Below, in pieces: positions 13,397-63,204 of a DNA stretch of 64,000 nt (the first letter of the stretch is position 1; each line of letters starts with the position of its first letter). The DNA is from Bacillota bacterium. GTDB taxonomy: Bacteria > Bacillota > Clostridia > Peptostreptococcales > Acidaminobacteraceae. Made by a program: the position numbers and the translations under genes. A model generated the notes under the pieces. The model saw only the letters and a list, made by a program, of their open reading frames with translations. It was not told where the DNA came from and did no database searches. The stretch spans positions 1 to 64,000 of the forward strand of contig JAOARG010000013.1 of NCBI GenBank assembly GCA_025210655.1, given 5' to 3'.

Positions 13397-14416
13397 ATGA
13401 AGAAGAAACTTACTTTAAAAAGTGTTTTGTTTTACATAGTATTAATAGCAATTATTATTCCAAGTTTTCAGTATGCATGTGAAACAAATTGGCTATACAA
13501 TGTTTGCTCCCATACTTTTACAGAAGAGGAAATAAGAACTTTCTTAAAAAATGAATATAGTAATGGTGTAGAACTTAAAGACTACAAAATCGACAAAAGT
13601 ATGATTAAAATCAAAGAAGAAGAGTCAAAACCTGTGCTTTATTATTATTTTGTTACTAAGTATAATAAAAATCAAGAAGACTTGATTTTTGATGAAGTTA
13701 GACAAATTTATAATAAAATGAGAAAAGAAGATGAAATAAGTGAGTACTTTTATAAATTAAGGTTTAGGGCATTAAATGGGGATAAGGTAATATATAAACA
13801 TACATATAATCTTATTAACTGGACTATGGATAGAATAACATATCTTTCTTTAGCTTTAATGGTTGCATTTGTAATAAGAATATACTATGGAATCAGAGCA
13901 TGGATAAAAGAAAGAAAAAGAAATAAGTTCTTAGGTGGAAATGAGATATATGATTATTCAATGGCAGAACTTAAATTGTATCTACAAACTTATCCTACAG
14001 ACGATAGAGCCCATGCTAGACTTTCACAACTTTATCTAAGTGAAGGAAATGTTGCAGAAGCTTTAGAGTCAATTGGGGAAGCCAATAGGTTGAACCGATT
14101 TGAAAGGGATTATATAATTCATTATGGATATATTCTTGTTCTTTTAGAAGAACATAAAGAGGCATTAGGAGTATACAATGGGCTAATGAAGATTAAGAGT
14201 TTTTTTACAGATTATTATCTTTTATACATCGTGGCGTCCTTGTATTATAAGCTTGGAAAAATGAAGACAGCTAGAAGATACTATAAACACTCTTATAGAG
14301 TTTGTAAGAAAAGACGATTTAGAAATGATCCTAAGGCACAGGAATTGAAAAAAGATATTGAGATGATTTTATTTAATAAGCATCAGGGAGAAATCTATGG
14401 GAATAGTAACGGGTAA
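13397..14416 (+). CDS. Membrane-anchored TPR protein
   Basis: 339 residues. There is an N-terminal membrane helix (~8-25), an extracellular region of ~120 residues without a recognised fold, a second hydrophobic helix (~150-172) and a cytoplasmic C-terminal part with tetratricopeptide-like helices ('DDRAHARLSQLYLSEGNVAEALESIGEANRL', 'YYLLYIVASLYYKLGKMKTARRYYKHSY'). This suggests a scaffold for protein contacts on the inner face of the membrane. It abuts the GNAT gene and overlaps the ROK regulator start by 20 bp. No specific function can be assigned. Confidence 0.75.
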   Translation: MKKKLTLKSVLFYIVLIAIIIPSFQYACETNWLYNVCSHTFTEEEIRTFLKNEYSNGVELKDYKIDKSMIKIKEEESKPVLYYYFVTKYNKNQEDLIFDEVRQIYNKMRKEDEISEYFYKLRFRALNGDKVIYKHTYNLINWTMDRITYLSLALMVAFVIRIYYGIRAWIKERKRNKFLGGNEIYDYSMAELKLYLQTYPTDDRAHARLSQLYLSEGNVAEALESIGEANRLNRFERDYIIHYGYILVLLEEHKEALGVYNGLMKIKSFFTDYYLLYIVASLYYKLGKMKTARRYYKHSYRVCKKRRFRNDPKAQELKKDIEMILFNKHQGEIYGNSNG

Positions 14417-15563
14417 ACCAGCTTTAATAAAAAAAATTAATAGGAGTATTGTGATTAAGCTGATTATAAAACATAAAGAGATTAGTAGATCAGAAATATC
14501 AAAAATCACAAAACTATCACTACCAAGTGTTATGAGAATAATTGATAGTCTCATTGATGAAGGATTGGTAATTGAGATTGGAAAGGGAGACTCTTCTGGT
14601 GGAAGAAAACCCAGTTTACTCTCAATGAACAATAATGCTATGTATATTATAGGTGTTGAAATAGCAATAAATTCAAGGATAATACTTACTGACTTGTCTG
14701 GTAAGGTGCTTGATAGTGAAGAATTTGATAATAGTAATATCAGTACTCCCTTAGGGGTTTTGACGAAAATCAAGGAATGTATAGATAGTATTATATCAAG
14801 GAATAAGGATTATGAAGGTCTTATATCGGGAATCGGAATAGGTACACCCGGTGAAAATTATAAATATAACGATTCTATTGAAATGGCTATAATAAAGGGA
14901 TGGGAAGAGCTAAATGTTCTTAGTTGGTTTGAGAATCATTTTGACTATCCTGTATTTGTTGAAAATGTAGCCAGAACAAGAACTCTTAGTGAATTATGGT
15001 TTGGTGAAGGGCAAAGTATCAAAAACTTTATATACCTTTTTATTGACAGGGGGGTTGGATGTGGAATTGTAAATAATGGCTCTGTATATGAAGGTTATAA
15101 TGGCGTTGCCGGTGAACTTGGACATACTATTATACAACTTGATGGTCGTAAATGTTATTGTGGCAATAAGGGTTGTCTTGAGATGTATGTTTCAGCCGGT
15201 GCAATACTTAACCAATTGAAAGAAAATAATAATTATTATAAGGATTATAATTTTGAAAAACTAATCGAAAATCAGTCTGATGAAGAGATTGGAAGTATTA
15301 TTGAAAAAAGTGCTAAAATCATGGGGATAGCCACAGCAAACTTAATCAACTTATATAATCCAGAAGCTGTGATTTTAGGGGGAATAGTTGCTAAATCTTT
15401 TGAAGAATTTTCAAAAATCTTAAGTGATACTTTGAATGAAAATATATTCAATAAAAATGCACTGAATACAAGGATTTTAAGTAGTAAATTGGATTATGAA
15501 AAAACAGGTCTTGGAAGTGTTGCACTGGTAATAAATAATATATTTAAATCGGTTGAATTATAA
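14397..15563 (+). CDS. ROK-family transcriptional regulator
   Basis: 388 residues. Residues ~5-65 are a winged helix-turn-helix ('ISRSEISKITKLSLPSVMRIIDSLIDEGLV'). The ROK sugar-kinase-like domain follows, with the zinc-binding signature 'GHTIIQLDGRKCYCGNKGCLE' (His plus three Cys) and glycine-rich phosphate loops 'GIGTPGE' and 'DRGVGCGI'. NagC/XylR-type ROK proteins repress sugar genes and release DNA on binding sugar. It lies just upstream of the isomerase/sugar-kinase genes and is the natural candidate to control them. GGGAG about 8 bp upstream precedes the ATG, which lies inside the end of the TPR gene. Confidence 0.9.
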   Translation: MGIVTGKPALIKKINRSIVIKLIIKHKEISRSEISKITKLSLPSVMRIIDSLIDEGLVIEIGKGDSSGGRKPSLLSMNNNAMYIIGVEIAINSRIILTDLSGKVLDSEEFDNSNISTPLGVLTKIKECIDSIISRNKDYEGLISGIGIGTPGENYKYNDSIEMAIIKGWEELNVLSWFENHFDYPVFVENVARTRTLSELWFGEGQSIKNFIYLFIDRGVGCGIVNNGSVYEGYNGVAGELGHTIIQLDGRKCYCGNKGCLEMYVSAGAILNQLKENNNYYKDYNFEKLIENQSDEEIGSIIEKSAKIMGIATANLINLYNPEAVILGGIVAKSFEEFSKILSDTLNENIFNKNALNTRILSSKLDYEKTGLGSVALVINNIFKSVEL

Positions 15564-15571
15564 GATGATAA

Positions 15572-15610
15572 GCCACAGAAAACTCATAATGGAGTTTTCT
15601 GTGGCTTTTA
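15572..15610 (+). terminator. Strong terminator after ROK regulator
   Basis: Perfect 14-bp stem GCCACAGAAAACTC/GAGTTTTCTGTGGC with a 6-nt loop, then TTTT. It separates the ROK gene from the sugar operon. Confidence 0.85.
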
Positions 15611-15613
15611 ATA

Positions 15614-15654
15614 TTGACTTATGATAAACTTAGTTACAAATAGTAAGTAAGTTT
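15614..15654 (+). promoter_or_regulatory. Promoter with inverted-repeat operator of sugar operon
   Basis: TTGACT (15614-15619) is a likely -35 with TACAAA (15635-15640) as a possible -10, at a short 15-bp spacing. A near-perfect inverted repeat, AAACTTAGTTAC / GTAAGTAAGTTT (11 of 12 pairs, 5-nt spacer, 15626-15654), covers the -10. That position suits a repressor; the adjacent ROK protein is the obvious candidate (inference). Confidence 0.5.
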
Positions 15655-15698
15655 GCTTTACATAAAAACTAGACAAATATTCCTGAAAGGAGCTTTTT

Positions 15699-16232
15699 AT
15701 GAAACTAAAAATAAAGACGGTTGATATGGATGATAAGATTATGTCCATGCTTGAAGAAAGAGATCTTATAGCCAGACTTAGGCCAGGAAATCATAGACTT
15801 GAAGTATCAAAGGGTGAGTCTAATCACTACTCCCTATATGAGTCTGAGGATAAATTTGGACCCCATAAGATTATTTCCGTTACTATTAATTCTACAATAC
15901 CTAAAAACTTTTTATTCCATAATGAAAACGAAGAGTTTTGGCTTATTGATTCCCATGATAGGGAAAGTTTGATTATTGTAATTGCTCTTGTAAAGAAGGA
16001 TCTTCTTAATGAAAAGATAAAAGATGCAAGTATTTCTGGAGACGATTTTATAGGACTTAGGTGTAAATTCTGTGATCCCAATTTAAGCTTTTTTATTATG
16101 AAAAAGCATGTGGCCCACGTTGAGATAGTCGAAAGGGAAAGCGAAAAGCCACCTAGTTTTTATGTAACGGAATCAAGGGATATTGATGAGAATTTTATTG
16201 ATTTATTAGATAATAAATTAGATATAATATAA
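15699..16232 (+). CDS. Uncharacterised protein of the sugar operon
   Basis: 177 residues, soluble, no signal peptide. I do not recognise the family. The middle part ('FLFHNENEEFWLIDSHDRESLIIVIALVKKD') and the C-terminal part with Cys-x-x-Cys ('LRCKFCDPNLSFF') look beta-rich. It is preceded by GAAAGGAGC and followed, 17 bp later, by the isomerase gene. Its position suggests a role in sugar handling such as an auxiliary isomerase, mutarotase or ligand-binding protein, but nothing in the sequence proves this. Confidence 0.7.
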   Translation: MKLKIKTVDMDDKIMSMLEERDLIARLRPGNHRLEVSKGESNHYSLYESEDKFGPHKIISVTINSTIPKNFLFHNENEEFWLIDSHDRESLIIVIALVKKDLLNEKIKDASISGDDFIGLRCKFCDPNLSFFIMKKHVAHVEIVERESEKPPSFYVTESRDIDENFIDLLDNKLDII

Positions 16233-16249
16233 ATGAGGAGGTTATCATT

Positions 16250-16939
16250 ATGAAAAGATCGGAAATTAATGGAGCTATTTCTTGGGCAAAAGGGCTTTTA
16301 GAGGAGAATAAAATAAAGCTTCCCCCATTTGGATATTGGAATCTAGACAAATGGAAAGAAAATAGCAATAAGACTGATGTAATTAGAGAAGTAATGCTTG
16401 GATGGGATATTACTGATTATGGTGAAGGTAGATTTGAAGAGTTTGGAGCAGTCCTATTTACATTAAGAAATGGTAGCTTGGATGATTCTAGACTTGGTAC
16501 ACCTTATGCGGAAAAACTAATAATCCTTAAAGAAGGACAAAGACTTCCAAATCATTATCATGCTTCAAAAACAGAGGAAATTATAAATAGAGGTGGTGGA
16601 GTAATGGCCATAAAGCTTTACAATTCCCTTCCTGATGGAAAAGTTGATTATAAATCCAAGGTAGAGGTAGAAATGGATGGTATTAAATATCAATTTGAAG
16701 CTGGTGAAGAAGTTAATATATATCCAGGGGAGAGTATTACACTTAGACCTTTCCAGTATCACTTATTCTGGGCTAAGGAAGGAAAGGGTGATCTTATTTT
16801 AGGTGAAGTATCTTCTATTAATGATGATAACACTGATAATTATAATGCTGATGAAATAGCTAGATTTGCTGAGGTAGAGGAGGATGAAAATATTATACAT
16901 CCCCTATGCAATGAATATAAGAAAGTCTTAGGAGAATAA
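16250..16939 (+). CDS. D-lyxose/D-mannose-type ketol-isomerase
   Basis: 229 residues, the usual length for D-lyxose isomerase (EC 5.3.1.15), a cupin enzyme that interconverts D-lyxose/D-xylulose and usually also D-mannose/D-fructose. The metal-binding residues are visible: His and His in 'LPNHYHASKTEEI' with the following Glu, and a further His in 'LRPFQYHLFW'. The N-terminal 'REVMLGWDITDYGEGRFEEFGAVLFTLRNG' is typical of this family. It lies 2 bp before a PfkB sugar kinase. With the alpha-mannosidase downstream, a mannose-to-fructose role is the most economical reading (inference). RBS GAGGAGG. Confidence 0.85.
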   Translation: MKRSEINGAISWAKGLLEENKIKLPPFGYWNLDKWKENSNKTDVIREVMLGWDITDYGEGRFEEFGAVLFTLRNGSLDDSRLGTPYAEKLIILKEGQRLPNHYHASKTEEIINRGGGVMAIKLYNSLPDGKVDYKSKVEVEMDGIKYQFEAGEEVNIYPGESITLRPFQYHLFWAKEGKGDLILGEVSSINDDNTDNYNADEIARFAEVEEDENIIHPLCNEYKKVLGE

Positions 16940-16941
16940 CT

Positions 16942-17898
16942 ATGAATAATAAAAAATCATTTGATATAGTTGGGGTAGGGGAGCTTCTTATTGATTTTAC
17001 ACCTGTTAAGATAGATGGAGAAAATTATTTTAAGGAAAACCCAGGGGGAGCTCCTTGTAATTATCTTGCTGCAGCTCAAAAGTATGGTATGGACACTGCC
17101 TTTATTGGTAAAGTGGGTAAAGATGCTTTTGGTTATATGCTAAAGTCCACTGTTGAGAGTATTGGTATTGATACATCAAGTCTTATACTTTCTGAAAAAC
17201 ATAATACTACACTTGCTTTTGTCCATCTTGAGGAAAATGGGGAGAGAAGTTTTTCTTTTTATAGAAAAGGCTGTGCAGATATAATGCTTGAAAATAATGA
17301 TATCGATTTTAGTCTTCTTGATAGAACTAAGGCAATTCATTTTGGATCCCTTTCCTTTACAGATGAACCTGGTAGGTCAACTGTTTTAGATTTGTTAGAT
17401 CGTGCTAAGGAGAAGGGGCTTATAATATCTTATGATCCTAATTATAGACCTCCTTTATGGGACTCTGAAGAACATGCCATTAAGGAGATGAAAAGTGGAC
17501 TCAAGTATGCAGATGTTTTAAAGGTTTCTGATGAAGAGGCTGAGTTAATTACAGGTGAAAAGGATCTTCTTGAAGCAGCTAAAATTTTATCTGATTATGG
17601 GATTAGACTTGTATTTGTAACCTTAGGGGATAAGGGTGCTCTTTACTATCATAAAAATGGACATGGTATTGTTGAAGGAAGAAATACCAAGGCTATTGAT
17701 ACAACTGGTGCAGGAGATGCGTTTTTTGGTTCAACAGTAGCACAAATAATTGAGAAAAATGTAGATCTTAATAAGATTGACAATATTGTTATTGAAGAAA
17801 TACTCAAGTATTCAAACACAGCTGCATCAATGTGTATTGAAGGTTATGGTGGAATTCCCTCAATACAAGATAGAGAAAATGTTGAAAAACTATTATAG
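16942..17898 (+). CDS. PfkB-family fructokinase-like sugar kinase
   Basis: 318 residues. Both ribokinase/PfkB signatures are present: the N-terminal 'GGAPCNYLAAAQKYGMDTAF' and 'GKVGKDAFG', and the C-terminal 'DTTGAGDAFFGS' that holds the catalytic Asp and anion hole. The overall sequence is most like bacterial fructokinases (EC 2.7.1.4). It directly follows the isomerase, so mannose or lyxose converted to the ketose could be phosphorylated here and enter glycolysis. RBS GGAG overlaps the end of the isomerase gene. Confidence 0.85.
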   Translation: MNNKKSFDIVGVGELLIDFTPVKIDGENYFKENPGGAPCNYLAAAQKYGMDTAFIGKVGKDAFGYMLKSTVESIGIDTSSLILSEKHNTTLAFVHLEENGERSFSFYRKGCADIMLENNDIDFSLLDRTKAIHFGSLSFTDEPGRSTVLDLLDRAKEKGLIISYDPNYRPPLWDSEEHAIKEMKSGLKYADVLKVSDEEAELITGEKDLLEAAKILSDYGIRLVFVTLGDKGALYYHKNGHGIVEGRNTKAIDTTGAGDAFFGSTVAQIIEKNVDLNKIDNIVIEEILKYSNTAASMCIEGYGGIPSIQDRENVEKLL

Positions 17899-17963
17899 TT
17901 AAGAACAACAATTATTTTGTTAAAAATTTGTTTTAGAGTTCTTTTCTCAAACTATATAAAAGT

Positions 17964-18007
17964 AGGATGACTCCTTTGTTATGAAGGTTTTGGAGTCATC
18001 CTATTTT
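17964..18007 (+). terminator. Terminator of the isomerase/kinase operon
   Basis: Perfect 11-bp stem AGGATGACTCC/GGAGTCATCCT with a 17-nt loop followed by ATTTTATTTT. The rest of the 410-bp gap up to 18308 holds the promoter, operator and leader hairpin described next. Confidence 0.8.
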
Positions 18008-18078
18008 ATTTTTAGTATACAATATTCTTAATTACTCTCATAGAATATTTACAAAAATATATTTATGGATAAGTTTTA

Positions 18079-18134
18079 TTACAAAAGAAAATATCTTATG
18101 ATACAATATACCTGTAAGCTATCATACAGGTATA
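18079..18134 (+). promoter_or_regulatory. Promoter and operator of the transporter/mannosidase operon
   Basis: Candidate -35 TTACAA (18079-18084) and -10 TACAAT (18102-18107) with 17-bp spacing. A perfect 10-bp inverted repeat, TATACCTGTA (18107-18116) / TACAGGTATA (18125-18134), begins at the end of the -10 and covers the expected start site, which is where a repressor would act. The FadR-type regulator at the end of this operon or the ROK protein upstream are candidates (inference). TACAGGT recurs at 18133-18139 and ACCTGTAAG at 18260-18268. Confidence 0.6.
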
Positions 18135-18136
18135 CA

Positions 18137-18237
18137 GGTTGGATCTCGGACTTGTAACAAATCCCCTTATATTAGGTGCTAGACTTTCAGTCTAGTACTT
18201 AATATAAACCGTTTTGTTATAAGTCTGAGATTCAACC
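18137..18237 (+). ncRNA. Long leader RNA hairpin
   Basis: A 101-nt fold-back lies in the 5' leader. The outer helix pairs 18137-18161 with 18213-18237 (25 bp), and the inner helix pairs 18167-18184 with 18190-18207 (18 bp), capped by the 5-nt loop TTTCA and separated by a small internal loop. There are no mismatches within the helices. All five non-Watson-Crick pairs are G on the 5' side opposite T on the 3' side, so they pair as G-U only in RNA made from the + strand. This suggests the RNA, not the DNA palindrome, is under selection. I do not recognise a known riboswitch. Confidence 0.7.
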
Positions 18238-18308
18238 CAAAAAATAATTATATATTTTAACCTGTAAGTAGCTTCAATATGTACTAAATATATTAGGAGG
18301 GGATTTTT

Positions 18309-20000
18309 GTGAAAAGAACAGGTGTGTTGTTTTTAGCTATGATTATGATGATTTCTTGTGTATTTACAGGTTGTGGTCAAAAAGAAGCTAACACAGGTGA
18401 CACTCAAGCTTCTTCAGAAGTGAAGAGTGAGGAAAGTGTAAAGGATGATGTTGAGCAGATAATTAATGTAGAATTTAATGAAGATATGTCATCACTGAAT
18501 TCTGCAAAAATGGCAGAGTCATATGCCAACACAGTAATTATGGAGACTCAAGAGATGCTTGTAAGAATGGAAAATGGCACATTACAGCCTGCAGGTGCGA
18601 AGAGCTGGAGTCAATCAGAAGATGGTTTAGTTTGGACATTTAAAATTAGAGATTTTAAATGGAGTGATGATGTTGCAGTAAAGGCTGAAGATTACGCTTT
18701 TGCAGTAGAGGCAATGCTTGATCCTAGTACAGCTTGTCCAAACGCTGGCATGTTTTATTTTATTAAGGGTGCTAAGGCATTCAATACTGGAGAAGGGGAC
18801 TTTCAAGGGGTTGGAGTTAAGGCTATAGATGATAAAACACTTGAGTTTACTCTTGACTATCAAGTACCTTACTTCTTACAATTAATGAACTTTGCAAACT
18901 TAGTTCCATTAAGAGAGGATATTTATTCGGCTCAAGCTGGTACATATGGACAAGATGAAACTACTATGGTATATTCAGGACCTTTCTATGTTGAGAAATG
19001 GGTTAAGGGTTCTAAAATAATTTTAGCTAAGAATGAAAGTTATTGGGACAAAGATAAGGTGAAACTTGATAAGGCAATAATTAATATTGTTAAAGAAGAG
19101 CCTACTAAGATGAAAATGTTCAATAGCAAGGCTATAGATATTGTTACATCTGTTAAGGGTGAGTACAATACTGCTTTAGAAAAAATGGCTAATGATGGTG
19201 AAATAATTGCACTTAGTGGTTATCAACCAAGATCTGCTGAGGTAATTTTCAATACTCAAGATGAAAGCGGATTCTTTAAAAACGATAAAATTAGATTAGC
19301 ATTCTCTTTGGCGATAGATAGAGAAGCTTATGTAAATACAATAGCAAAAGGTAAAGTTGCAGCATATGGTTGGGTACCATACGAAATTCTTTTAGATGAT
19401 GTTAAATACAGAGAAGCAACTGAGGGTCCTCTTAAAACTGCAATGGATAAAGATCCTAAGGCATTATATGAAGAAGGTCTTGCTGAGCTTGGTTTAGATC
19501 CAGCTAAGGAGCATGAGGTAACTTTCCTTATTAAGAGTGCAAGTACATCTGAAAGATCTAACGGTGAATTCTACCAAGATCAATGGGAAAAGAAACTTGG
19601 TGTAAAAGTTAATATTGATGTTGCAAGTGATAATGCTACATTCAACAAGTGTGTAATGGAAGGTCAATATCAAGTTTGTCAATCAGGATGGGGTGCTGAT
19701 TTCAATGATCCAGTAAATTTCCTTGAAATGTTCGAAACTGGAAATGGTAACAATGGACCATTCTTTAGTGATGAGAAGTTTGATGAACTTATTGCACTTT
19801 CAAGAACTGAACAGGATACTCAAAAGAGACTTGAATTATTCCAAGAAGCTGAGAAAATTTTAGTTGCTGAAAAAGCTGCTATTGCTCCTGTAACTTTTGA
19901 AAAGAAAAGTTCTTATGTACAAAACTATGTAAAAGGTGTTGAATTACCTTCATTTGGACCAAAATTTGAATTTAAAAATGCAAGTATAGAAGGAAAATAG
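18309..20000 (+). CDS. ABC transporter substrate-binding lipoprotein (SBP_bac_5 family)
   Basis: 563 residues, the normal size for OppA/DppA-type binding proteins. The signal peptide ends in lipobox FTGC (Cys ~22). Family features include 'NGTLQPAGAKSWSQSEDGLVWTFKIRDFKWSDDVAVKAEDYAFAVEAML' in the N-terminal lobe and 'NDKIRLAFSLAIDREAYV'. GTG start with TAGGAGGGG upstream. Members of this family bind oligopeptides, but some bind oligosaccharides. With a GH38 mannosidase at the end of the same gene string, a mannose-containing oligosaccharide is a reasonable guess (inference). Confidence 0.88.
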   Translation: MKRTGVLFLAMIMMISCVFTGCGQKEANTGDTQASSEVKSEESVKDDVEQIINVEFNEDMSSLNSAKMAESYANTVIMETQEMLVRMENGTLQPAGAKSWSQSEDGLVWTFKIRDFKWSDDVAVKAEDYAFAVEAMLDPSTACPNAGMFYFIKGAKAFNTGEGDFQGVGVKAIDDKTLEFTLDYQVPYFLQLMNFANLVPLREDIYSAQAGTYGQDETTMVYSGPFYVEKWVKGSKIILAKNESYWDKDKVKLDKAIINIVKEEPTKMKMFNSKAIDIVTSVKGEYNTALEKMANDGEIIALSGYQPRSAEVIFNTQDESGFFKNDKIRLAFSLAIDREAYVNTIAKGKVAAYGWVPYEILLDDVKYREATEGPLKTAMDKDPKALYEEGLAELGLDPAKEHEVTFLIKSASTSERSNGEFYQDQWEKKLGVKVNIDVASDNATFNKCVMEGQYQVCQSGWGADFNDPVNFLEMFETGNGNNGPFFSDEKFDELIALSRTEQDTQKRLELFQEAEKILVAEKAAIAPVTFEKKSSYVQNYVKGVELPSFGPKFEFKNASIEGK

Positions 20001-20036
20001 TTATAAAACATTAACTTGAAAAGACAAGAATACTCT

Positions 20037-20082
20037 AAGGGACAATTTTAGTGCATCGCGTATATGCCTTTGATTGTCCCTT
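20037..20082 (+). terminator. Intercistronic hairpin after the binding-protein gene
   Basis: Perfect 10-bp stem AAGGGACAAT/ATTGTCCCTT enclosing an inner GCAT/ATGC hairpin, with a poor T-tract. Such hairpins between binding protein and permease genes commonly cause partial termination or protect the upstream message, giving more binding protein than membrane subunits. Confidence 0.6.
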
Positions 20083-20106
20083 ACTTAAACAAATATGGAG
20101 GTTTAA

Positions 20107-21051
20107 ATGTTTAACTATATTTTTAAAAGACTATTATACTTGGTATTAACCCTAGTTGTTGTTGTAACATTGACATTTTTCCTAATGAATTCTCTTCCAG
20201 GCGATGCTCTTCAAACTAGTACAAAACTTTTGCCACCTGAAGTTGAACAAAATCTTAGGGTAAAATGGGGCCTTGATAAACCTGTGACTGAAAGGTATGG
20301 AATATATATGAAAAATCTTGCTTCGGGTAATTTTGGAGAATCAATGAAAACTCCGGGATTGACTGCAAATGAGATTTTTAAGGATAGATTCCCTGCATCA
20401 GCAAGATTGGCTGTTCAAGCTGCTTTGTTTGCAATGACTATAGGATTGACCTTTGGAATTATATCGTCTTTCAATAGAAATACATGGATTGATTATCTGG
20501 TCATTTTTATTGCTATACTGGGGGTTTCTGTACCGAGTTTTGTTTATGCTGCACTTCTTCAAAAGTATTTATCTGGTGGTAGTCTTCCTATTATAGGCTG
20601 GCCTAGTAGTGAGGTGTGGACTTCTGGATTTAAGTATACAGTCCTTCCTACATTGGCACTTAGTTTTGGAGGTATAGCAACATTTTCTAGATTTATGAGA
20701 AATTCAGTATTAGATGTAAAGGGTCAAGACTATATTCTTACGGCTGAAGCAAAGGGTTGTTCTAAGTTTAGAATAGTAAGAAAGCATATCTTGAGGAACT
20801 CACTTATACCTATAATCACTATAGCGGGTCCTTATTTTGCATCACTTCTTACAGGATCTTTTATAATTGAAAGAATATTTGTTATACCTGGTTTAGGTGA
20901 ATATTTCGTAGAAAGTATAAATGGTAGGGATTATAACATGATTATGGCCATGACTGTGCTTTATTCTGTATTATTTATAGTATCACTGCTTGTTGTTGAT
21001 GTGCTTTATGCAGTAATTGACCCAAGGGTCAAGCTAAAGGGAGGTAGTTAG
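20107..21051 (+). CDS. Opp/Dpp-type ABC permease subunit 1
   Basis: 314 residues with six predicted membrane spans. Features of the DppB/OppB family are visible: N-terminal 'YIFKRLLYLVLTLVVVVTLTFFLMNSLPGD' and the EAA loop 'YILTAEAKGCSKFRIVRKHILRNSL', which docks with the ATPase. TGGAGG precedes the ATG. It is followed after 4 bp by the second permease subunit. Confidence 0.92.
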   Translation: MFNYIFKRLLYLVLTLVVVVTLTFFLMNSLPGDALQTSTKLLPPEVEQNLRVKWGLDKPVTERYGIYMKNLASGNFGESMKTPGLTANEIFKDRFPASARLAVQAALFAMTIGLTFGIISSFNRNTWIDYLVIFIAILGVSVPSFVYAALLQKYLSGGSLPIIGWPSSEVWTSGFKYTVLPTLALSFGGIATFSRFMRNSVLDVKGQDYILTAEAKGCSKFRIVRKHILRNSLIPIITIAGPYFASLLTGSFIIERIFVIPGLGEYFVESINGRDYNMIMAMTVLYSVLFIVSLLVVDVLYAVIDPRVKLKGGS

Positions 21052-21055
21052 GGTT

Positions 21056-22033
21056 ATGGAAGGTGTATCTATTTATACTGGGAAAGCTACTGAAGAATCA
21101 ATCGAAAATATTGAAGAAGATATTTTTTATGATGATGATTTTATTATAGTAGGTTGTGACAATGATGAAAGTGAAAAGATATCCGCTCCTTCTCTTACAT
21201 ACTGGAAAGACGCAATGAGAAGACTTAGACAAAATAAGATAGCGATTTTTTCATTAATGATATTATTTTTGATTTTTATTATGACCATAATTGGTCCAAA
21301 TATATCAAACTATGGTTTTAGGGATCAGGACTTATCCATAGCCCACAGTCTTCCTTCATCAGATCATTATTTTGGAACAGATGAACTTGGAAGAGACATA
21401 TTCGCTAGAATATGGGTAGGAGGTAGAGTTTCTTTACTAATAGGTTTTGTAGGGACAATAATTTCTTTATTAATTGGATGTACATATGGTGGGATTTGCG
21501 GATATTTTGGTGGTAAAATCGACACTGTAATGATGAGAATAGTAGAGATACTTGTAGGAATTCCATATATGATAGTTGTAATTTTAGCATCTGTTGTTTT
21601 AGGAAAGGGTATAGTATCCCTTATAGTCGCACTTTGTCTGACAAGTTGGACTGGTTCAGCAAGGCTCATCAGGGGACAGATTATACAACTTAAAGAATCA
21701 GAGTATGTATTGGCAGCAAGGGTACTAGGTGCAAAACCATGGAGAATTATCTTAAAGCACCTTATACCAAATACATTGGGGATAATAATTGTTAATATGA
21801 CTTTTGAAATTCCAGGGTTTATTTTTTCAGAGGCCTTTCTAAGTTTTGTAGGATTAGGTGTACAACCTCCTAATACAAGTTGGGGAGCCATGGCTTCTAT
21901 TGGTCAACAGCAAATGGATTTCTTTCCCCATGAATTATTATTTCCAGCTTTAGCTATAAGTATAACAATGTTGGCATTTAATTTACTTGGTGATGGACTA
22001 AGGGATGCCCTTGATCCGAAACTTAGACAGTAA
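21056..22033 (+). CDS. Opp/Dpp-type ABC permease subunit 2
   Basis: 325 residues. The DppC/OppC features are 'DAMRRLRQNKIAIFSLMILFLI', 'HYFGTDELGRDIFARIWVGGRVSL' and the EAA loop 'YVLAARVLGAKPWRIILKHLIPN'. It has an unusual acidic N-terminal extension of about 50 residues, rich in Asp and Glu, before the first membrane span; homologues usually have 10-40 residues there. The ATG lies 11 bp after GGGAGG and 4 bp after the previous stop. Confidence 0.9.
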   Translation: MEGVSIYTGKATEESIENIEEDIFYDDDFIIVGCDNDESEKISAPSLTYWKDAMRRLRQNKIAIFSLMILFLIFIMTIIGPNISNYGFRDQDLSIAHSLPSSDHYFGTDELGRDIFARIWVGGRVSLLIGFVGTIISLLIGCTYGGICGYFGGKIDTVMMRIVEILVGIPYMIVVILASVVLGKGIVSLIVALCLTSWTGSARLIRGQIIQLKESEYVLAARVLGAKPWRIILKHLIPNTLGIIIVNMTFEIPGFIFSEAFLSFVGLGVQPPNTSWGAMASIGQQQMDFFPHELLFPALAISITMLAFNLLGDGLRDALDPKLRQ

Positions 22034-22046
22034 GTAGGAGGGAATT

Positions 22047-24047
22047 ATGGATAATATTTTAGATGTGAATGATTTGCAAGTTTCTTTTAATACTTATGCT
22101 GGAGAAGTGAAATCTGTCAGGGGTGTAAGTTTTCGTGTGAAAAAAGGAGAAACTCTTGCCATTGTAGGTGAGTCGGGATCTGGAAAAACGGTTACAGCAA
22201 AGAGTATATTAAGATTAATCAAAGGACCTATTGGAAAAATTAAAGATACAAGTGAGATAAATTTTCAAGGAGAAAATATTCTTGCTTATAAAGGAAAAAA
22301 GCTTGCAAGTTATAGAGGTGGAGACGTTTCTATGATTTTTCAGGATGCTATGACATCACTGAATCCAACTATGAAAGTAGGAGATCAAATCATTGAAAGT
22401 ATCCGTCTTCATGAAAAGGTAAGCAAGAAAGATGCTAGGAATCGCGCTATAGAAATGCTTAGATTAGTTAAAATAACCAATCCTGAATTGAGGGTTGATG
22501 AATACCCATACCAACTTTCCGGTGGTATGAGACAGAGAGTTATGATTGCAATTGCACTTTCCTGCAATCCTAAGATATTAATAGCTGATGAACCTACTAC
22601 AGCTTTGGATGTTACGGTTCAGGCAGAAATAATGGATCTTTTAAAAAGTTTACAAAATGAATTGGGTATAGGAATACTTCTAATAACCCATGATCTTGGT
22701 GTTGTTGCAGAAAATGCTGATAGAGTAATGGTTATGTATGGTGGGACTGTTGTTGAAGAAGCTACTGTTGAAGAAATTTTTTATAATCCCCAGCATTTAT
22801 ATACAGCATCTTTATTAAGGGCAATTCCAAAATTAAGTATGGATAGAAAGGTAAAATTAACATCTATAGCTGGTTCTCCGCCAGATATGTTAGAGCCACC
22901 TAAGGGATGTCCATTTGCTCCTAGATGTGAAAAGGCTATGAACATTTGCAAAAGGAGAATGCCAAAGGAATTTATTATTTCAAATACTCACAAAACTAAA
23001 TGTTGGCTAAAACATGATTCAGCTCCAAGGGTAGCTATTAAAGAGTTTATTGAGGAATCTAAAAAAGTAAATGTGGGAGATAAGTTCGAGTCTGACGAGA
23101 AAATACTTGAAGTAAAGAATTTGAAAAAGTATTTCCAAGTAGGAAAAAATAAGACTTTAAAGGCTGTAGATGATGTTTCCTTTTATATAAATAAGGGTGA
23201 GACCCTTGGTATTGTAGGGGAATCTGGTTGTGGTAAAACTACATGTGGAAGGACTCTAGTTAATTTATACACACCTTCAGAGGGCAGTGTATATTATAGG
23301 GGGCAAAGTATCTCCGATATGAACTCTAGGCAGTTAATGGATTTTAATAAGGATGTACAAATGATTTTTCAAGATCCTTATGCATCTTTAAATCCCCGTA
23401 TGACTGTTGCAGATATCATAGCAGAGGGTCTAGATATTCATAATATAGAAAGTGGAAAGAAGAGACAGGAAAGAATATATGAACTACTTAATATGGTTGG
23501 ACTTAATAAATCCCATGCCAATAGGTTTCCCCATGAGTTTTCTGGAGGACAAAGGCAGAGGATAGGAATCGCTAGGGCACTTTCTGTAAACCCTAAACTT
23601 ATTGTATGTGATGAACCGATTTCAGCTCTTGATATGTCTATTCAAGCTCAAGTGATTAATTTATTACTTGATTTACAGACTAAAATAGGTCTAACATACG
23701 TTTTTATAGCCCATGATCTTTCCATGGTTAAGTATATATCTGATAGGGTTGCGGTTATGCATTTAGGTAGAATTGTAGAGTTAGCTGATAGTGATTCAAT
23801 ATATCAAAATCCATATCATCCATATACAAAGATGCTTATGGAGTCTATACCTATTCCTGATCCAAAAAATATTAAGGACGCAAATGAAGGTTTTAATAGT
23901 GATGAAGCAGAAAGTCCTATAAATCCTAAAGCAGGATGTAGGTTTGCAAAAAGATGTAAGTATGCTATGGAGATATGTAGAAGTACTACTCCAAAATTAA
24001 AAGAAATAGAAAAGAATCATTACGTTTCTTGTCATATGTCATTTTGA
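22047..24047 (+). CDS. Fused OppD-OppF-type ABC ATPase
   Basis: 666 residues with two complete nucleotide-binding domains in one chain. Domain 1 (~1-325) has Walker A 'GESGSGKT', signature 'LSGGMRQR' and Walker B 'ILIADEPTTALD'. Domain 2 (~350-666) has 'GESGCGKT', 'FSGGQRQR' and 'LIVCDEPISALD'. Each ends in the Cys-rich C-terminal extension of this family ('CPFAPRCEKAMNIC', 'CRFAKRCKYAMEIC'), which in relatives can hold a metal centre. The fusion replaces the separate D and F subunits, so the transporter has a single ATPase polypeptide. GGAGGG precedes the ATG. Confidence 0.92.
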   Translation: MDNILDVNDLQVSFNTYAGEVKSVRGVSFRVKKGETLAIVGESGSGKTVTAKSILRLIKGPIGKIKDTSEINFQGENILAYKGKKLASYRGGDVSMIFQDAMTSLNPTMKVGDQIIESIRLHEKVSKKDARNRAIEMLRLVKITNPELRVDEYPYQLSGGMRQRVMIAIALSCNPKILIADEPTTALDVTVQAEIMDLLKSLQNELGIGILLITHDLGVVAENADRVMVMYGGTVVEEATVEEIFYNPQHLYTASLLRAIPKLSMDRKVKLTSIAGSPPDMLEPPKGCPFAPRCEKAMNICKRRMPKEFIISNTHKTKCWLKHDSAPRVAIKEFIEESKKVNVGDKFESDEKILEVKNLKKYFQVGKNKTLKAVDDVSFYINKGETLGIVGESGCGKTTCGRTLVNLYTPSEGSVYYRGQSISDMNSRQLMDFNKDVQMIFQDPYASLNPRMTVADIIAEGLDIHNIESGKKRQERIYELLNMVGLNKSHANRFPHEFSGGQRQRIGIARALSVNPKLIVCDEPISALDMSIQAQVINLLLDLQTKIGLTYVFIAHDLSMVKYISDRVAVMHLGRIVELADSDSIYQNPYHPYTKMLMESIPIPDPKNIKDANEGFNSDEAESPINPKAGCRFAKRCKYAMEICRSTTPKLKEIEKNHYVSCHMSF

Positions 24048-24078: not shown

Positions 24079-27000
24079 ATGTTATATGCTGAAAAAAAAA
24101 TAAAAAGAATAATTAAAGAGCTTGAAAAGAATATATATACTGATGAAGTAAATATAATGAGTTTTTATAAAAAGAATGGATTATATAATTCAATAGAAGA
24201 TGTAGAAAACTCCAAAGATCCTTGGATAGCAACTTGGGCAGAAGATTTTTGGGGTGGTATTGATAAGGATTGTTGGTGTAAGTTTGATCTTGAAATTCCT
24301 GAAGAGTTCAAAGGAAAAAGGCTAGGACTTTTTGTCTCTACAGGTGAATATGATCTTGAAAAGGAAGAGACTACAACAAATCCTCAAATACTTTTTTATC
24401 TTGATAAAAACATAATTCAAGGTTTTGATATTAACCATAGGGAGTATATTCTCACAGAGTCAAGTTCTGGGGATGAAAAATACAGGGTAGACTTAAAAGT
24501 CAATAGTGGTATGTTTGATAGAAAGTTTCATTTTGTTATTAAAATAGTTACTATTGATGAAGATGTAAGAAAGCTCTATTATGATATAAAAGTTCCTTTT
24601 CAAGCTCTTATTGAAATGAATGATTCTGATTATATGAGGAATAGAATTGTAGGAATTCTTGAAAAGACCATTAGTTTTATAGACTTTAGAAAGATAGCTT
24701 CTAAAGAATATAAAGAGTCTATAAAGAATGCTTTAAATTATATTGAAGAAGAATTTTATAAAAAAGAGTGTGGAAAACATGATATTACAGCCAGTGTAGT
24801 GGGCCATACTCATATAGATATTGCCTGGCTATGGACTGTTGCCCAGACAAGGGAGAAGGTCGCTCGAAGTTTTTCTACTGTTCTTAGTTTAATGGATCAG
24901 TATCCGGAATATAAATTTATGTCAAGTACACCACTTTTATATCAATTTGTAAAAGAAGACTATCCAGAAATATATGAAAAGATAAAGGCAAGAATATCTG
25001 AGGGAAGATGGGAAGCTGATGGTGGTATGTGGATTGAATCAGACTGTAACATGGTTTCAGGAAGGTCTTTGTCCAGACAATTTCTTTATGGAAAAAGATT
25101 TTTCCAAAGTGAATTTGCTGTAGACAGTAAAATCTTATGGCTACCTGATGCCTTTGGTTATTGTCCAAGTTTACCACAAATAATGAAAAAATCTGGTATT
25201 GATTATTTTGTAAGTTGTAAAATGGGATGGAATGATAGCAATAGACTTCCTAATGATACTTTTTACTGGAAGGGTATAGATGGAAGCGAGATCCTTAGTC
25301 ATATGATAACCACAACATATCCAAGACAATCAGTAACATCTTATGCAACGGATTATAATGGACAACTTTTTCCTGAAACTGTAATGGGTGCTTGGAATAC
25401 CTATCGACAACAGGATATTAGTAAAGATGTTTTGATTACATTTGGATACGGTGATGGTGGCGGCGGACCAACTAAGGAAATGCTTGAAAATCAAAGGAGG
25501 ATGTCTAAGGGTATACCAGGGTGTCCTAAAACTAATATAAGAAGTGTTGGTCAATACTTCAATGATTTATCAAGTGAAATAGAAAGTGGAAAAAAACTAC
25601 CTAAATGGTCAGGAGAATTATATCTAGAAACCCATAGGGGTACATATACATCTATGGCTAGAAATAAAAAATCCAATCGTTATTGTGATATGTTATTGGG
25701 AAAAGCTGAAAAATTAGCTTCTTTAGATATGTTGATATCAGATAAGAAGTATCCTCAAGAAATACTTGAAAAACACTGGAAGACCGTACTTATGAATCAA
25801 TTTCATGATATATTGCCGGGTTCATCAATAAAGGAAGTATATGAAGTAACAAAAGAGGAATATGAATTTGTTGAAAATGACCTTGAAGGAATGAATAAGA
25901 AACTTCTAACAAGTATTGTAGAAAATATATCGGCAAAGGAAAAGACACTCGTATTGTTTAATTCATTAGGCTTTGAAAGAAGTGATATAGTAGAAATTGA
26001 AGGTGATTTTGATGATAATATTAACCTTCTTGATATAGAGGATGATAGGAAAATAGAAGTTCAAAAGTCCAGTAAAGGAATTGTTTTCTATGCTGAAAGA
26101 TTACCTTCATTAGGTTATAAAAAGTATAGTATTGTAAGTGCTAGAGATAAATCTTTTGACGATGAACTTTTCTATATGAATGTATCCTCTTTTGAAAACA
26201 AGTATTATAAGGTGAAGTTAGATGAATCAGGTGCATTTAAATCAATTTATGATAAAACCATGGGACGAGAAATCATTAAAGAGGGTCAATTGGCAAATAG
26301 ACTTGTTTGTTACGAGAATAAACCTCATATTTATGATAATTGGAATATTGATGCTAATTATAGAGAAAAAAGCTGGGATATTGATGATCTAATATCTATT
26401 GATGTAATCGAAGATGGTCCAGTAAGAAAAGTACTTCAAATAAAAAAAGGAATCCTTGATTCTACTGTTGTTCAGGATATAATCCTATATAGGGATTCCC
26501 GAAGAATTGATTTTAAGACTGTTATTGATATGAAAATGACAGATGTACTTATCAAATGTCAATTTCCTCTTGATATTAATACTGATTTTGGTACATTTGA
26601 AACAGCTTATGGTAGTTGTAGAAGATCAAGCCACGAGAATACCTCGTGGGATATGGCAAACTATGAAGTTCCGGGACATAGATGGGCAGATCTCTCTGAA
26701 GGTAACTACGGAGTAGCGTTGCTAAATGACTCAAGATATGGTTATAGTATTAAAGGTAATGATATTGCTTTAAGTCTAGTAAAACCTGGTACTTATCCGA
26801 ATCCTGATGCGGATATAGAAGTACATGAGCTTATATATTCCCTATATAGTCACAGTAATTCTGTTTTGAATAGTGATACCCATAAAGAAGGGGAAAAAAT
26901 TAATGAACCCTTAAAGGGAGTCTTAATTGATGAAAGAAGTGGAAAGTTTGAAGAAAACCTTTCATTTTTTGAGCTAGACTGTGATAATATTATTATAGAT

Positions 27001-27225
27001 TCTGTCAAAAAGTGTGAAGAGTCGGATGATATTATTGTGACTTGTTATGAACATTGTAATAGGAGATCCAAAGTTGTTTTCAAATCATATTTTAATATAA
27101 GTAGGGTTTGGGAATGTGATTTAACAGAAAAGAATATTACTGAGTATGAGCACTCTGACAATAAAATAGAATTTGATATGAAAGCTTTTGAAATAAAAGT
27201 ATTTAAAATCAGCTTTCAAAAATGA
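24079..27225 (+). CDS. GH38 alpha-mannosidase
   Basis: 1,048 residues, the usual length of bacterial GH38 enzymes. The catalytic domain begins with 'VGHTHIDIAWLWTVAQTREK' at ~240, where the HxHxD motif binds zinc and Trp residues line the -1 site. The nucleophile is the Asp in 'WLPDAFGYC' (~357). The second half is the beta-sandwich C-terminal region ('ENKYYKVKLDESGAFKSIYDK...'). No signal peptide, so it acts in the cytoplasm on imported substrates, releasing mannose. It is 32 bp from the ABC ATPase gene with GGAGGAG upstream. Together with the isomerase and kinase at 16-18 kb this completes mannoside to fructose-6-phosphate (inference). Confidence 0.92.
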   Translation: MLYAEKKIKRIIKELEKNIYTDEVNIMSFYKKNGLYNSIEDVENSKDPWIATWAEDFWGGIDKDCWCKFDLEIPEEFKGKRLGLFVSTGEYDLEKEETTTNPQILFYLDKNIIQGFDINHREYILTESSSGDEKYRVDLKVNSGMFDRKFHFVIKIVTIDEDVRKLYYDIKVPFQALIEMNDSDYMRNRIVGILEKTISFIDFRKIASKEYKESIKNALNYIEEEFYKKECGKHDITASVVGHTHIDIAWLWTVAQTREKVARSFSTVLSLMDQYPEYKFMSSTPLLYQFVKEDYPEIYEKIKARISEGRWEADGGMWIESDCNMVSGRSLSRQFLYGKRFFQSEFAVDSKILWLPDAFGYCPSLPQIMKKSGIDYFVSCKMGWNDSNRLPNDTFYWKGIDGSEILSHMITTTYPRQSVTSYATDYNGQLFPETVMGAWNTYRQQDISKDVLITFGYGDGGGGPTKEMLENQRRMSKGIPGCPKTNIRSVGQYFNDLSSEIESGKKLPKWSGELYLETHRGTYTSMARNKKSNRYCDMLLGKAEKLASLDMLISDKKYPQEILEKHWKTVLMNQFHDILPGSSIKEVYEVTKEEYEFVENDLEGMNKKLLTSIVENISAKEKTLVLFNSLGFERSDIVEIEGDFDDNINLLDIEDDRKIEVQKSSKGIVFYAERLPSLGYKKYSIVSARDKSFDDELFYMNVSSFENKYYKVKLDESGAFKSIYDKTMGREIIKEGQLANRLVCYENKPHIYDNWNIDANYREKSWDIDDLISIDVIEDGPVRKVLQIKKGILDSTVVQDIILYRDSRRIDFKTVIDMKMTDVLIKCQFPLDINTDFGTFETAYGSCRRSSHENTSWDMANYEVPGHRWADLSEGNYGVALLNDSRYGYSIKGNDIALSLVKPGTYPNPDADIEVHELIYSLYSHSNSVLNSDTHKEGEKINEPLKGVLIDERSGKFEENLSFFELDCDNIIIDSVKKCEESDDIIVTCYEHCNRRSKVVFKSYFNISRVWECDLTEKNITEYEHSDNKIEFDMKAFEIKVFKISFQK

Positions 27226-27262: not shown

Positions 27263-27934
27263 ATGATAGAGAGAATGGCACTTCACGATATGATTGTAAA
27301 AGAAGTTAAGAAATATATTGACGATAATAATCTTAAACCTGGGGACAAACTCCCACCACAAAGTGAATTTGCCAAAATGTTTGGTCTTAGTAGAACCTCT
27401 TTAAGAGAAGCTACAAGAACACTTCAAGCCCTTGGTATTATTGAAATAATAAATGGAAAAGGTATGTATGTAAAGAGTAATATCTTTGCACCGGATGAAA
27501 ATGCTTTGGATAAAGAAGGGAAAATCAAAAGGTTGATATGGGTTCTTGAAGTAAGAAGAGTCCTTGAAAAACTTGCTGTTGAACTAGCTGTAGTTAATGC
27601 AACGGAGGATGATTTGAAAGTAATGGAAGAGAATCTTATAATAATGGAAGAAATGGCTGAAAAATCTCAACCACATCCAAATTACGATAAGGCATTTCAT
27701 TATAAAATATACGAGGCTTCAGGGAATCCAGCTTTACTGGAAAGTATTAACCACATGGGAGTTCAATTTGATTCCTTGTGGGAAAATCCTTTAGGGGCAG
27801 GAGATGCTTTTACTGAGGGAACTAATTATCATAGGGAGCTTTTTGATGCTATAAAAAATAGGGACAAGAAAAGGTCCTTAGAGGTGTTTGACAAATTAAT
27901 TGATCAGATTGAAGTTATATTGAAGAATATATAA
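27263..27934 (+). CDS. FadR-subfamily GntR transcriptional regulator
   Basis: 223 residues. The N-terminal winged helix 'GDKLPPQSEFAKMFGLSRTSLREATRTLQALGIIEIINGKG' is typical of GntR. The C-terminal FCD helical domain contains an Asp and two His positions ('YDKAFHYKIYEASGNP', 'TNYHRELFDAI') that usually bind a metal and an acidic ligand. It is 38 bp after the mannosidase gene with AGGAGG and probably belongs to its operon, so it may autoregulate the locus through the inverted repeat at 18107-18134. Confidence 0.9.
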   Translation: MIERMALHDMIVKEVKKYIDDNNLKPGDKLPPQSEFAKMFGLSRTSLREATRTLQALGIIEIINGKGMYVKSNIFAPDENALDKEGKIKRLIWVLEVRRVLEKLAVELAVVNATEDDLKVMEENLIIMEEMAEKSQPHPNYDKAFHYKIYEASGNPALLESINHMGVQFDSLWENPLGAGDAFTEGTNYHRELFDAIKNRDKKRSLEVFDKLIDQIEVILKNI

Positions 27935-56155: not shown

Positions 56156-56548
56156 GGTGTTTTATTTTTCCTTTAGGAAAACTGGTAGTTTACGCGCCCC
56201 TTTTGGGCTTGTGGTGGTATTTGTGCCGTAAGCGCAAGTTAGTTAGGAAGAGTGAAGGGGAAAAGGAGAATCGCATTAAAGGATGTTAATGCTAGGGGAA
56301 TCAAGCTCATAAATAAGCTTTTGGGGAAGTGGAAAATATAAGATTTTTTAAAAAGTTTTTTAAAGGTCTTAAGTTTTCCGCTTCCCCTAAATTTTATGCA
56401 TTAAAATTGATTCCCCTAACACAAATGAAATTTTGTGTGATTCTCCTTTTCACCTAACCACCGTTTGCTCAAGCAAACTCACCACCACAAAACCTTTGCA
56501 AAAGGTTGCGTACATTACCATTTTCCTCCAAAAAGAAAATAAACCACC
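56156..56548. repeat. Fold-back modular repeat, copy B (complete)
   Basis: A 393-bp intergenic element that folds on itself. Three long helices pair left and right halves: 56261-56272 with 56439-56450 (12 bp perfect), 56293-56304 with 56407-56418 (12 bp perfect) and 56323-56336 with 56374-56387 (14 bp, one G-U). Side hairpins fill the junctions, e.g. GCATTAA/TTAATGC (56273-56292) and a seven-pair hairpin ACACAAA/TTTGTGT (56419-56438). Three hairpin modules flank each side, separated by GGTGGT-type spacers on the left and ACCACC-type on the right; each module begins with A and ends with T or is a near variant. No protein gene is visible within it. Confidence 0.8.
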
Positions 56549-62855: not shown

Positions 62856-62865
62856 ATAATAGTCG

Positions 62866-63204
62866 GGTGGTTAGTTTGCTGAAGCAAACGGTGGTTAGGT
62901 GTTGGGAAGAGATATTAGGTGAACCGCACAAGATATTTCTTGTGCTAGGGGAATTCGTTTTGTAATCAAAACTAAGGGGAAGAGGAAGAACTAAAGATCT
63001 TTATAAAGCGATTTTAAAGATACTTGTTCTGCCTTTTCCCCTAATTTTATTTATAAAATTAATTCCCCCAGCACTGACGAAGTTCAGTGCGATTCCCCAT
63101 TTCCCCCTATACCCAACCACCACTTGACTAAGTCAAGTACACCACCACGAGTCCCAAAAGGACAAGTAAACCACCATTTCTGCCAATAGCAGAAATACAC
63201 CACC
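62866..63204. repeat. Fold-back modular repeat, copy C (complete)
   Basis: A 339-bp intergenic element with the same plan as copy B, in the opposite orientation: its left end GGTGGTTA-GTTTGCT..AGCAAAC-GGTGGTTAGG is almost the reverse complement of the right arm of B. Long helices: 62946-62955 with 63061-63070 (9 of 10 pairs) and 62976-62991 with 63026-63041 (15 of 16 pairs). Side hairpins: GCACAAGA/TCTTGTGC (62926-62945) and GCACTGA/TCAGTGC (63071-63090). The right arm has three modules ACTTGAC/GTCAAGT, GTCC/GGAC and ATTTCTGC/GCAGAAAT, each separated by A(C/A)ACCACC. Stem sequences differ from B but pairing is kept. Confidence 0.8.

Follow-up and report, generated by a model that had tools for sequence, protein, structure and literature searches.

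A long hairpin at positions 18137-18237 of the 64,000-nucleotide stretch of DNA analysed here (the window) lies directly upstream of an operon for an ABC transporter and a GH38 alpha-mannosidase, and its position raises the question of whether it acts in the mRNA leader of this operon or is a palindromic DNA repeat that came to lie between promoter and gene. The initial annotation favored a regulatory or stabilizing RNA over a relic inverted repeat, on the basis of strand-polarized G-T positions in the stem and of the location between promoter and first gene. We followed this up by structure prediction, by searches for relatives and by a comparison with other hairpins and palindromic repeats of the host genome.

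Structure of the hairpin

Folding of the region resolved the following elements:

18137-18161, + strand, 5' arm of the lower stem (25 bp, three of them G-U; folding)
18162-18166, + strand, 5' side of the internal loop, UCCCC (folding)
18167-18185, + strand, 5' arm of the upper stem (19 bp, two of them G-U; folding)
18186-18188, + strand, terminal loop UUC, 3 nt (folding)
18189-18207, + strand, 3' arm of the upper stem (folding)
18208-18212, + strand, 3' side of the internal loop, ACCGU (folding)
18213-18237, + strand, 3' arm of the lower stem (folding and sequence)

The predicted fold comprises 44 pairs (39 Watson-Crick and five G-U) and a 5x5 internal loop, so that the long and near-perfect hairpin described before occupies exactly 18137-18237, with a stem of 44 bp instead of the 43 bp originally counted. 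Its + strand fold has an energy of -60.4 kcal/mol (z = -13.9), which was equaled by none of 200 shuffled sequences, and a scan of 457,832 bases of the host genome, the 458 kb sample that served as hairpin background, gave this hairpin the highest score. It is a real and unusually stable structure, present in a single copy and without conserved relatives, and its closest resemblance is to known leader hairpins with an influence on the processing and lifetime of mRNA.

A U-run directly 3' of the stem is absent (the sequence from 18238 onward is CAAAAAATAATT), and the hairpin is therefore not an intrinsic terminator or attenuator. The sole match in the terminator scan is made up of the upper stem and the ACCGTTTTGT behind it and lies within the larger helix. 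In a search for a leader peptide, no open reading frame was longer than 18 codons, nor did any have a good ribosome site.

Putative promoter, operator and outer stem

The sequence around the hairpin and the downstream operon contain the following features:

18102-18107, + strand, extended -10 promoter-like element TG-A-TACAAT (TGATACAAT, 18099-18107, with the TG at 18099-18100; consensus scan and sequence)
18108-18133, no strand assigned, operator-like palindrome ATACCTGT-N10-ACAGGTAT, overlapping the predicted start (motif search)
18116-18131, + strand, 5' arm of an outer stem (base-pair probabilities)
18260-18274, + strand, 3' arm of the outer stem (base-pair probabilities)
18295-18302, + strand, Shine-Dalgarno sequence AGGAGGGG (sequence)
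18309-20000, + strand, first gene, extracellular solute-binding protein family 5 (SBP_bac_5), GTG start (ORF and Pfam)
20107-21051, + strand, first ABC permease (Pfam)
21056-22033, + strand, second ABC permease (ORF and position)
22047-24047, + strand, fused two-domain ATPase (Pfam)
24079-27225, + strand, GH38 alpha-mannosidase (ORF and Pfam)
27263-27934, + strand, GntR/FCD regulator, last gene (Pfam)

From the pattern of the promoter-like element, transcription is predicted to start at about 18113-18116, and a promoter scan of the stretch between hairpin and gene revealed no + strand promoter-like site. The reported location between promoter and first gene agrees with the + strand promoter-like site upstream and the same-strand gene downstream, but the promoter is recognized by pattern only. 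The preceding gene, for a kinase, ends at 17898, and behind it the sequence shows a terminator-like stem with a T-run at 17963-18013.

The exact ATACCTGT-N10-ACAGGTAT motif occurs only once in the genome, and its half-site is found again at 18260-18268 (ACCTGTAAG). In the closest homologue of the operon, in genome G061, a GntR gene is located directly upstream of the solute-binding protein gene, and the best match of this GntR protein in the host genome is the GntR protein at the end of the operon (35% identity). This makes the operon-end GntR/FCD protein a natural and likely candidate regulator for the operator at 18108-18133.

When folding starts at 18114, most pairs of the outer stem reach probabilities of 0.9-1.0 and two pairs 0.66-0.69, and among 1000 shuffled versions of the downstream flank a single one gave a duplex at least as good. 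If this stem is real in the RNA, it would close the 5' end of the transcript. It consists in part of the repeated half-sites ACCTGT/ACAGGT, and therefore six or seven of its pairs can be explained at the DNA level. A further explanation is placed entirely at the DNA level, with ACCTGT half-sites that flank a cruciform-prone palindrome and together form an extended operator for looping repression by the GntR regulator. The unique palindrome over the start site, the half-site at 18260 and the GntR/FCD regulator as last gene of the operon are in line with it, but no half-site is present within the 44-bp palindrome itself, looping between half-sites at a distance of 145 bp does not require a palindrome, and pairing in the hairpin is better on the sense RNA. 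We therefore regard such an extended operator as quite improbable.

Strand preference of the fold

The initial annotation described all five non-Watson-Crick positions as G opposite T. All five G.T positions indeed have the G in the 5' arm, but the hairpin contains nine non-Watson-Crick positions, and the four in the internal loop (T.T, C.C, C.C and C.A) were omitted. The C.A position turns into a G-U pair on the - strand and so favors the other strand. Measured against a strand-neutral coin, the five G.T positions alone correspond to 1/32, and the 5:1 count including C.A to about 0.1. Among 22 hairpins with at least three transition-type mismatches in the genome sample, five besides this one reach a one-sidedness of 83% or more, and one of these five, at 56309-56401, belongs to a palindromic repeat with multiple copies. 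Because other hairpins and repeats of the host genome are one-sided as well, G-U polarity is weak evidence, and its use as an argument for RNA was overstated.

The fold of the - strand has an energy of -40.7 kcal/mol, which gives a strand difference of about 20 kcal/mol. For a palindromic DNA repeat of genus g119 (see below), ten copies gave smaller differences of 0.1-15.6 kcal/mol. Taken together, the strand polarity lends mild support to an RNA role of the hairpin and no more; whatever the origin of this hairpin, strand-biased G-U pairs in a single hairpin are weak proof of selection on RNA.

Search for homologues

BLAST and a covariance model both identified the hairpin as single copy over the whole assembly, which is 93% complete. 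BLAST against 60 relatives gave nothing above chance. Covariance-model searches yielded no credible homologue either, whether in 247 genomes of the order, in 391 of the class or in 40 chosen genomes; in the large order and class runs the filters were set more strictly, at the cost of weak matches. Among phages, plasmids and viral contigs, only chance k-mers of the hairpin turned up. In the window there was no Rfam match at gathering level and no riboswitch, and sub-threshold matches to miRNA families reflect nothing but the generic hairpin shape. A conserved structured RNA or riboswitch is characterized by a match to a described RNA family and by homologous leaders with covariation; the hairpin matches no described family, and the comparison of leaders across related genomes proposed earlier brought up no homologous leader in the genomes sampled.

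The binding protein of the closest operon homologue (G061) is 53% identical, and the 84-nt gap upstream of its gene, between the GntR gene and the solute-binding protein gene, contains no such hairpin. Homologous leaders without the hairpin had been named as an observation that would speak against a regulatory RNA, and G061 provides one, but this homologue is distant and its gene order is different. When named genomes were scanned for the solute-binding protein, the only match was a distant one in Verrucomicrobia. As no relative was found to have the hairpin, its function is unproven.

One candidate was rejected after closer inspection. The covariance model of the hairpin alone gave one match in the 247 genomes, in G234 (E 8.7e-6 per genome), which shares ACAAATCCCCTTATAT, a run of 16 identical bases, at the same structural place as the leader hairpin. 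A model trained on the leader hairpin, this match and its orthologue in G270 detected about five places of a palindromic repeat of ~165 bp per genome in G234 and G270, and in a ten-copy alignment of this repeat only the orthologous pair aligned to the leader hairpin above background. The shared 16-mer thus lies in an unconserved part of an unrelated palindromic repeat. Across 394 genomes of the order the exact 16-mer has only two occurrences, one of them in the leader hairpin, and the count expected by chance (4^-16, about 10^9 bases, both strands) is about the same. Since the other repeat copies score at background and the 16-mer stretch is variable among them, we treat the match as a chance event. 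The covariation seen in the alignment of the three sequences was dismissed as an artefact, because any two hairpins aligned in register give apparent covariation.

The repeat itself, present in G234 and G270 of genus g119, has the ends TATGCCA...TGGCATA and the inner sequences ACTGACTTAGA...TCTAAGTCAGT. Its copies are located around position 1500 of L074, L075, L081, L082 and L084-L089, and one of them lies in the TRIC-Fur gap of G234 as well as in that of G270.

Palindromic repeats in the host genome

The host genome has its own family of palindromic repeats of 166-361 bp, found at nine places in 458 kb with pairwise identities of mostly 70-77%, which suggests many tens of copies genome-wide. 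The repeats are intergenic where checked and, whichever strand is folded, reach -48 to -155 kcal/mol; the window gave no Rfam match. They are located at:

window 56209-56490 and 62865-63150
L093 2706-2934
L097 5411-5641
L099 3028-3264 and 14894-15169
L100 522-723
L103 3207-3567
L108 8102-8267

A second palindromic element of the host (L099 6225-6325 and L109 6814-6930) has a partial copy with 73% identity elsewhere. In G017, a genome of the same family as the host, L016 186-250 contains an inverted repeat that is perfect over ~30 bp (GGGGACAGGTCCAAAGTGGTACCTAGC..) and has a loop of 3 nt; both of its strands fold about equally.

In a genome this rich in palindromic repeats a lone palindrome in an intergenic gap is less surprising, and the hairpin may be a MITE-like, single-copy intergenic repeat that was inserted or arose between promoter and gene and affects expression only incidentally. 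The nine-place family and the second element with its partial copy fit this idea, as do the one-sided G-T positions among host repeats and the hairpin-free gap of G061, the nearest operon homologue. There is also a precedent in Neisseria, where a Correia element lies between the native promoter and mtrCDE and is cut by RNase III (PMC2649163). Correia repeat enclosed elements share with the hairpin a long palindrome between promoter and gene that forms a hairpin if transcribed, but they are multi-copy and mobile with defined ends, whereas the hairpin is single copy and has no recognized ends (PMC2649163). The host family resembles it in being long, intergenic and strongly folding, but differs in size, in copy number and in that both strands fold about equally, and its profile gives no match to the leader hairpin, which is therefore not a member. 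Several copies, which a repeat should have, were found neither by BLAST nor by the covariance model in the 93% complete assembly, and the energy difference between the strands exceeds that of all ten g119 copies. Nor is a target-site duplication clearly present: ACCTGTAAG flanks the block as a direct repeat (18110-18118 and 18260-18268), but it adjoins no terminal inverted repeats, matches the operator half-site and is better read as such. An origin as a lone repeat, the main rival of a leader RNA, is hence possible though somewhat doubtful. If it is correct, the locus shows how repeats enter leaders and mimic regulatory RNA, and the two explanations, a repeat or a leader RNA, differ more in origin than in effect.

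The ribosome-binding site

The 5' side of the internal loop carries AAATCCCCT, a perfect 9-nt complement of AGGGGATTT in the Shine-Dalgarno region, a coincidence seen in about 1% of shuffles. A translational switch could therefore be imagined in which the UCCCC loop pairs with the Shine-Dalgarno GGGGA, or in which the Shine-Dalgarno sequence is masked by a weak helix with which the outer stem is in competition. Without the 5' outer arm the site becomes 2-3 kcal/mol harder to open in transcripts ending at 18330 or 18345 (3.4-4.2 vs 1.2-1.4 kcal/mol with the arm), but this effect is absent, slight or reversed in transcripts ending at 18368 or 18400. The energy of the duplex between hairpin and ribosome site is likewise unexceptional, as 5.8% of shuffles equal it, and matches between C-rich and purine-rich stretches are easy to find post hoc. 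In silico removal of the hairpin alone, a check that the initial annotation had suggested, lowered the opening energy of the Shine-Dalgarno sequence from 5.0 to 4.5 kcal/mol, and no consistent change in the opening energy of the ribosome site emerged. Translational control by the leader is thus possible and not robustly supported, and a switch of this kind appears unlikely. Highly unlikely is a lineage-specific regulatory leader RNA in which the C-rich internal loop of the 44-bp helix contacts the Shine-Dalgarno sequence and, jointly with the 5' outer stem, controls how strongly an operon for the uptake of mannose-type glycans is translated, with a protein or a sugar-related signal as possible trigger.

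A proposed structural leader at the 5' end of the mRNA

For a transcribed structural leader, which would shield the 5' end of the mRNA or be cut near it, we see about an even chance. The preference for a regulatory or stabilizing RNA over a relic inverted repeat holds to the extent that a transcribed leader is still the likeliest reading, given the promoter-like site, the same-strand gene, the sense fold and the outer stem, but it has to be set against the sampled genomes, which offered no homologous leader for a comparison by covariation, and against the hairpin-free G061. Transcription would begin near 18114, at a promoter overlapped by the operator of a regulator, and pass through the hairpin. 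The first about 160 nt would then form a closed structure, consisting of the outer stem and the 44-bp helix with its C-rich internal loop, which leaves about 20 nt to the ribosome-binding site. The paired 5' end may hinder the removal of pyrophosphate and 5'-to-3' decay, and/or RNase III may cut the long helix and thereby determine the mature 5' end and the lifetime of the transcript. The analysis establishes the structure as a prediction, along with its preference for the sense strand, where it lies and that it is present once, whereas transcription through it, protection of the 5' end and cutting are inferred.

The closest worked example is the cspA leader of Staphylococcus aureus (PMC3386247). 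There, RNase III cleaves a helix of 32 bp that is almost perfect and lies close to the 5' end, the half-life increases from <2.5 to >16 min, and base pairing of 5' ends gives protection against RppH and RNase J1. Both leaders have a near-perfect long helix on the sense strand near the 5' end (here a predicted one) and upstream of the ribosome site in a Gram-positive type host. The genes are different, the helix is longer here (44 vs 32 bp), contains an internal loop and is joined by the outer stem as a second one, and cutting by RNase III, documented for cspA, may occur in our case as well. Furthermore, the cspA leader is conserved among staphylococci, whereas the hairpin was not seen in relatives. 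Stabilizers with a 5'-terminal stem-loop, such as the leaders of Escherichia coli ompA and Bacillus subtilis aprE (works listed in PMC3997798), also combine a paired 5' end, again a predicted one in our case, with a ribosome site in a less structured stretch, but the helix predicted here is far longer. If transcribed, the hairpin would rank among the longer leader helices and would make it simple to test how much 5'-end pairing and cutting by RNase III contribute to mRNA lifetime in clostridia-like bacteria.

Neighboring genes and a second intergenic stem

Upstream of the hairpin, at 14397-17898 of the window, an operon encodes a ROK regulator, a protein without Pfam match (15699-16232), a D-lyxose isomerase family protein and a PfkB sugar kinase, which together with the GH38 operon suggests a locus for the use of mannose-type glycans. 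Within the transporter operon, a further hairpin with the arms AAGGGACAAT and ATTGTCCCTT is located at 20036-20085 between the gene of the solute-binding protein and that of the first permease. This is a position where stems that lower the expression of downstream genes or stabilize the upstream mRNA are usually found.
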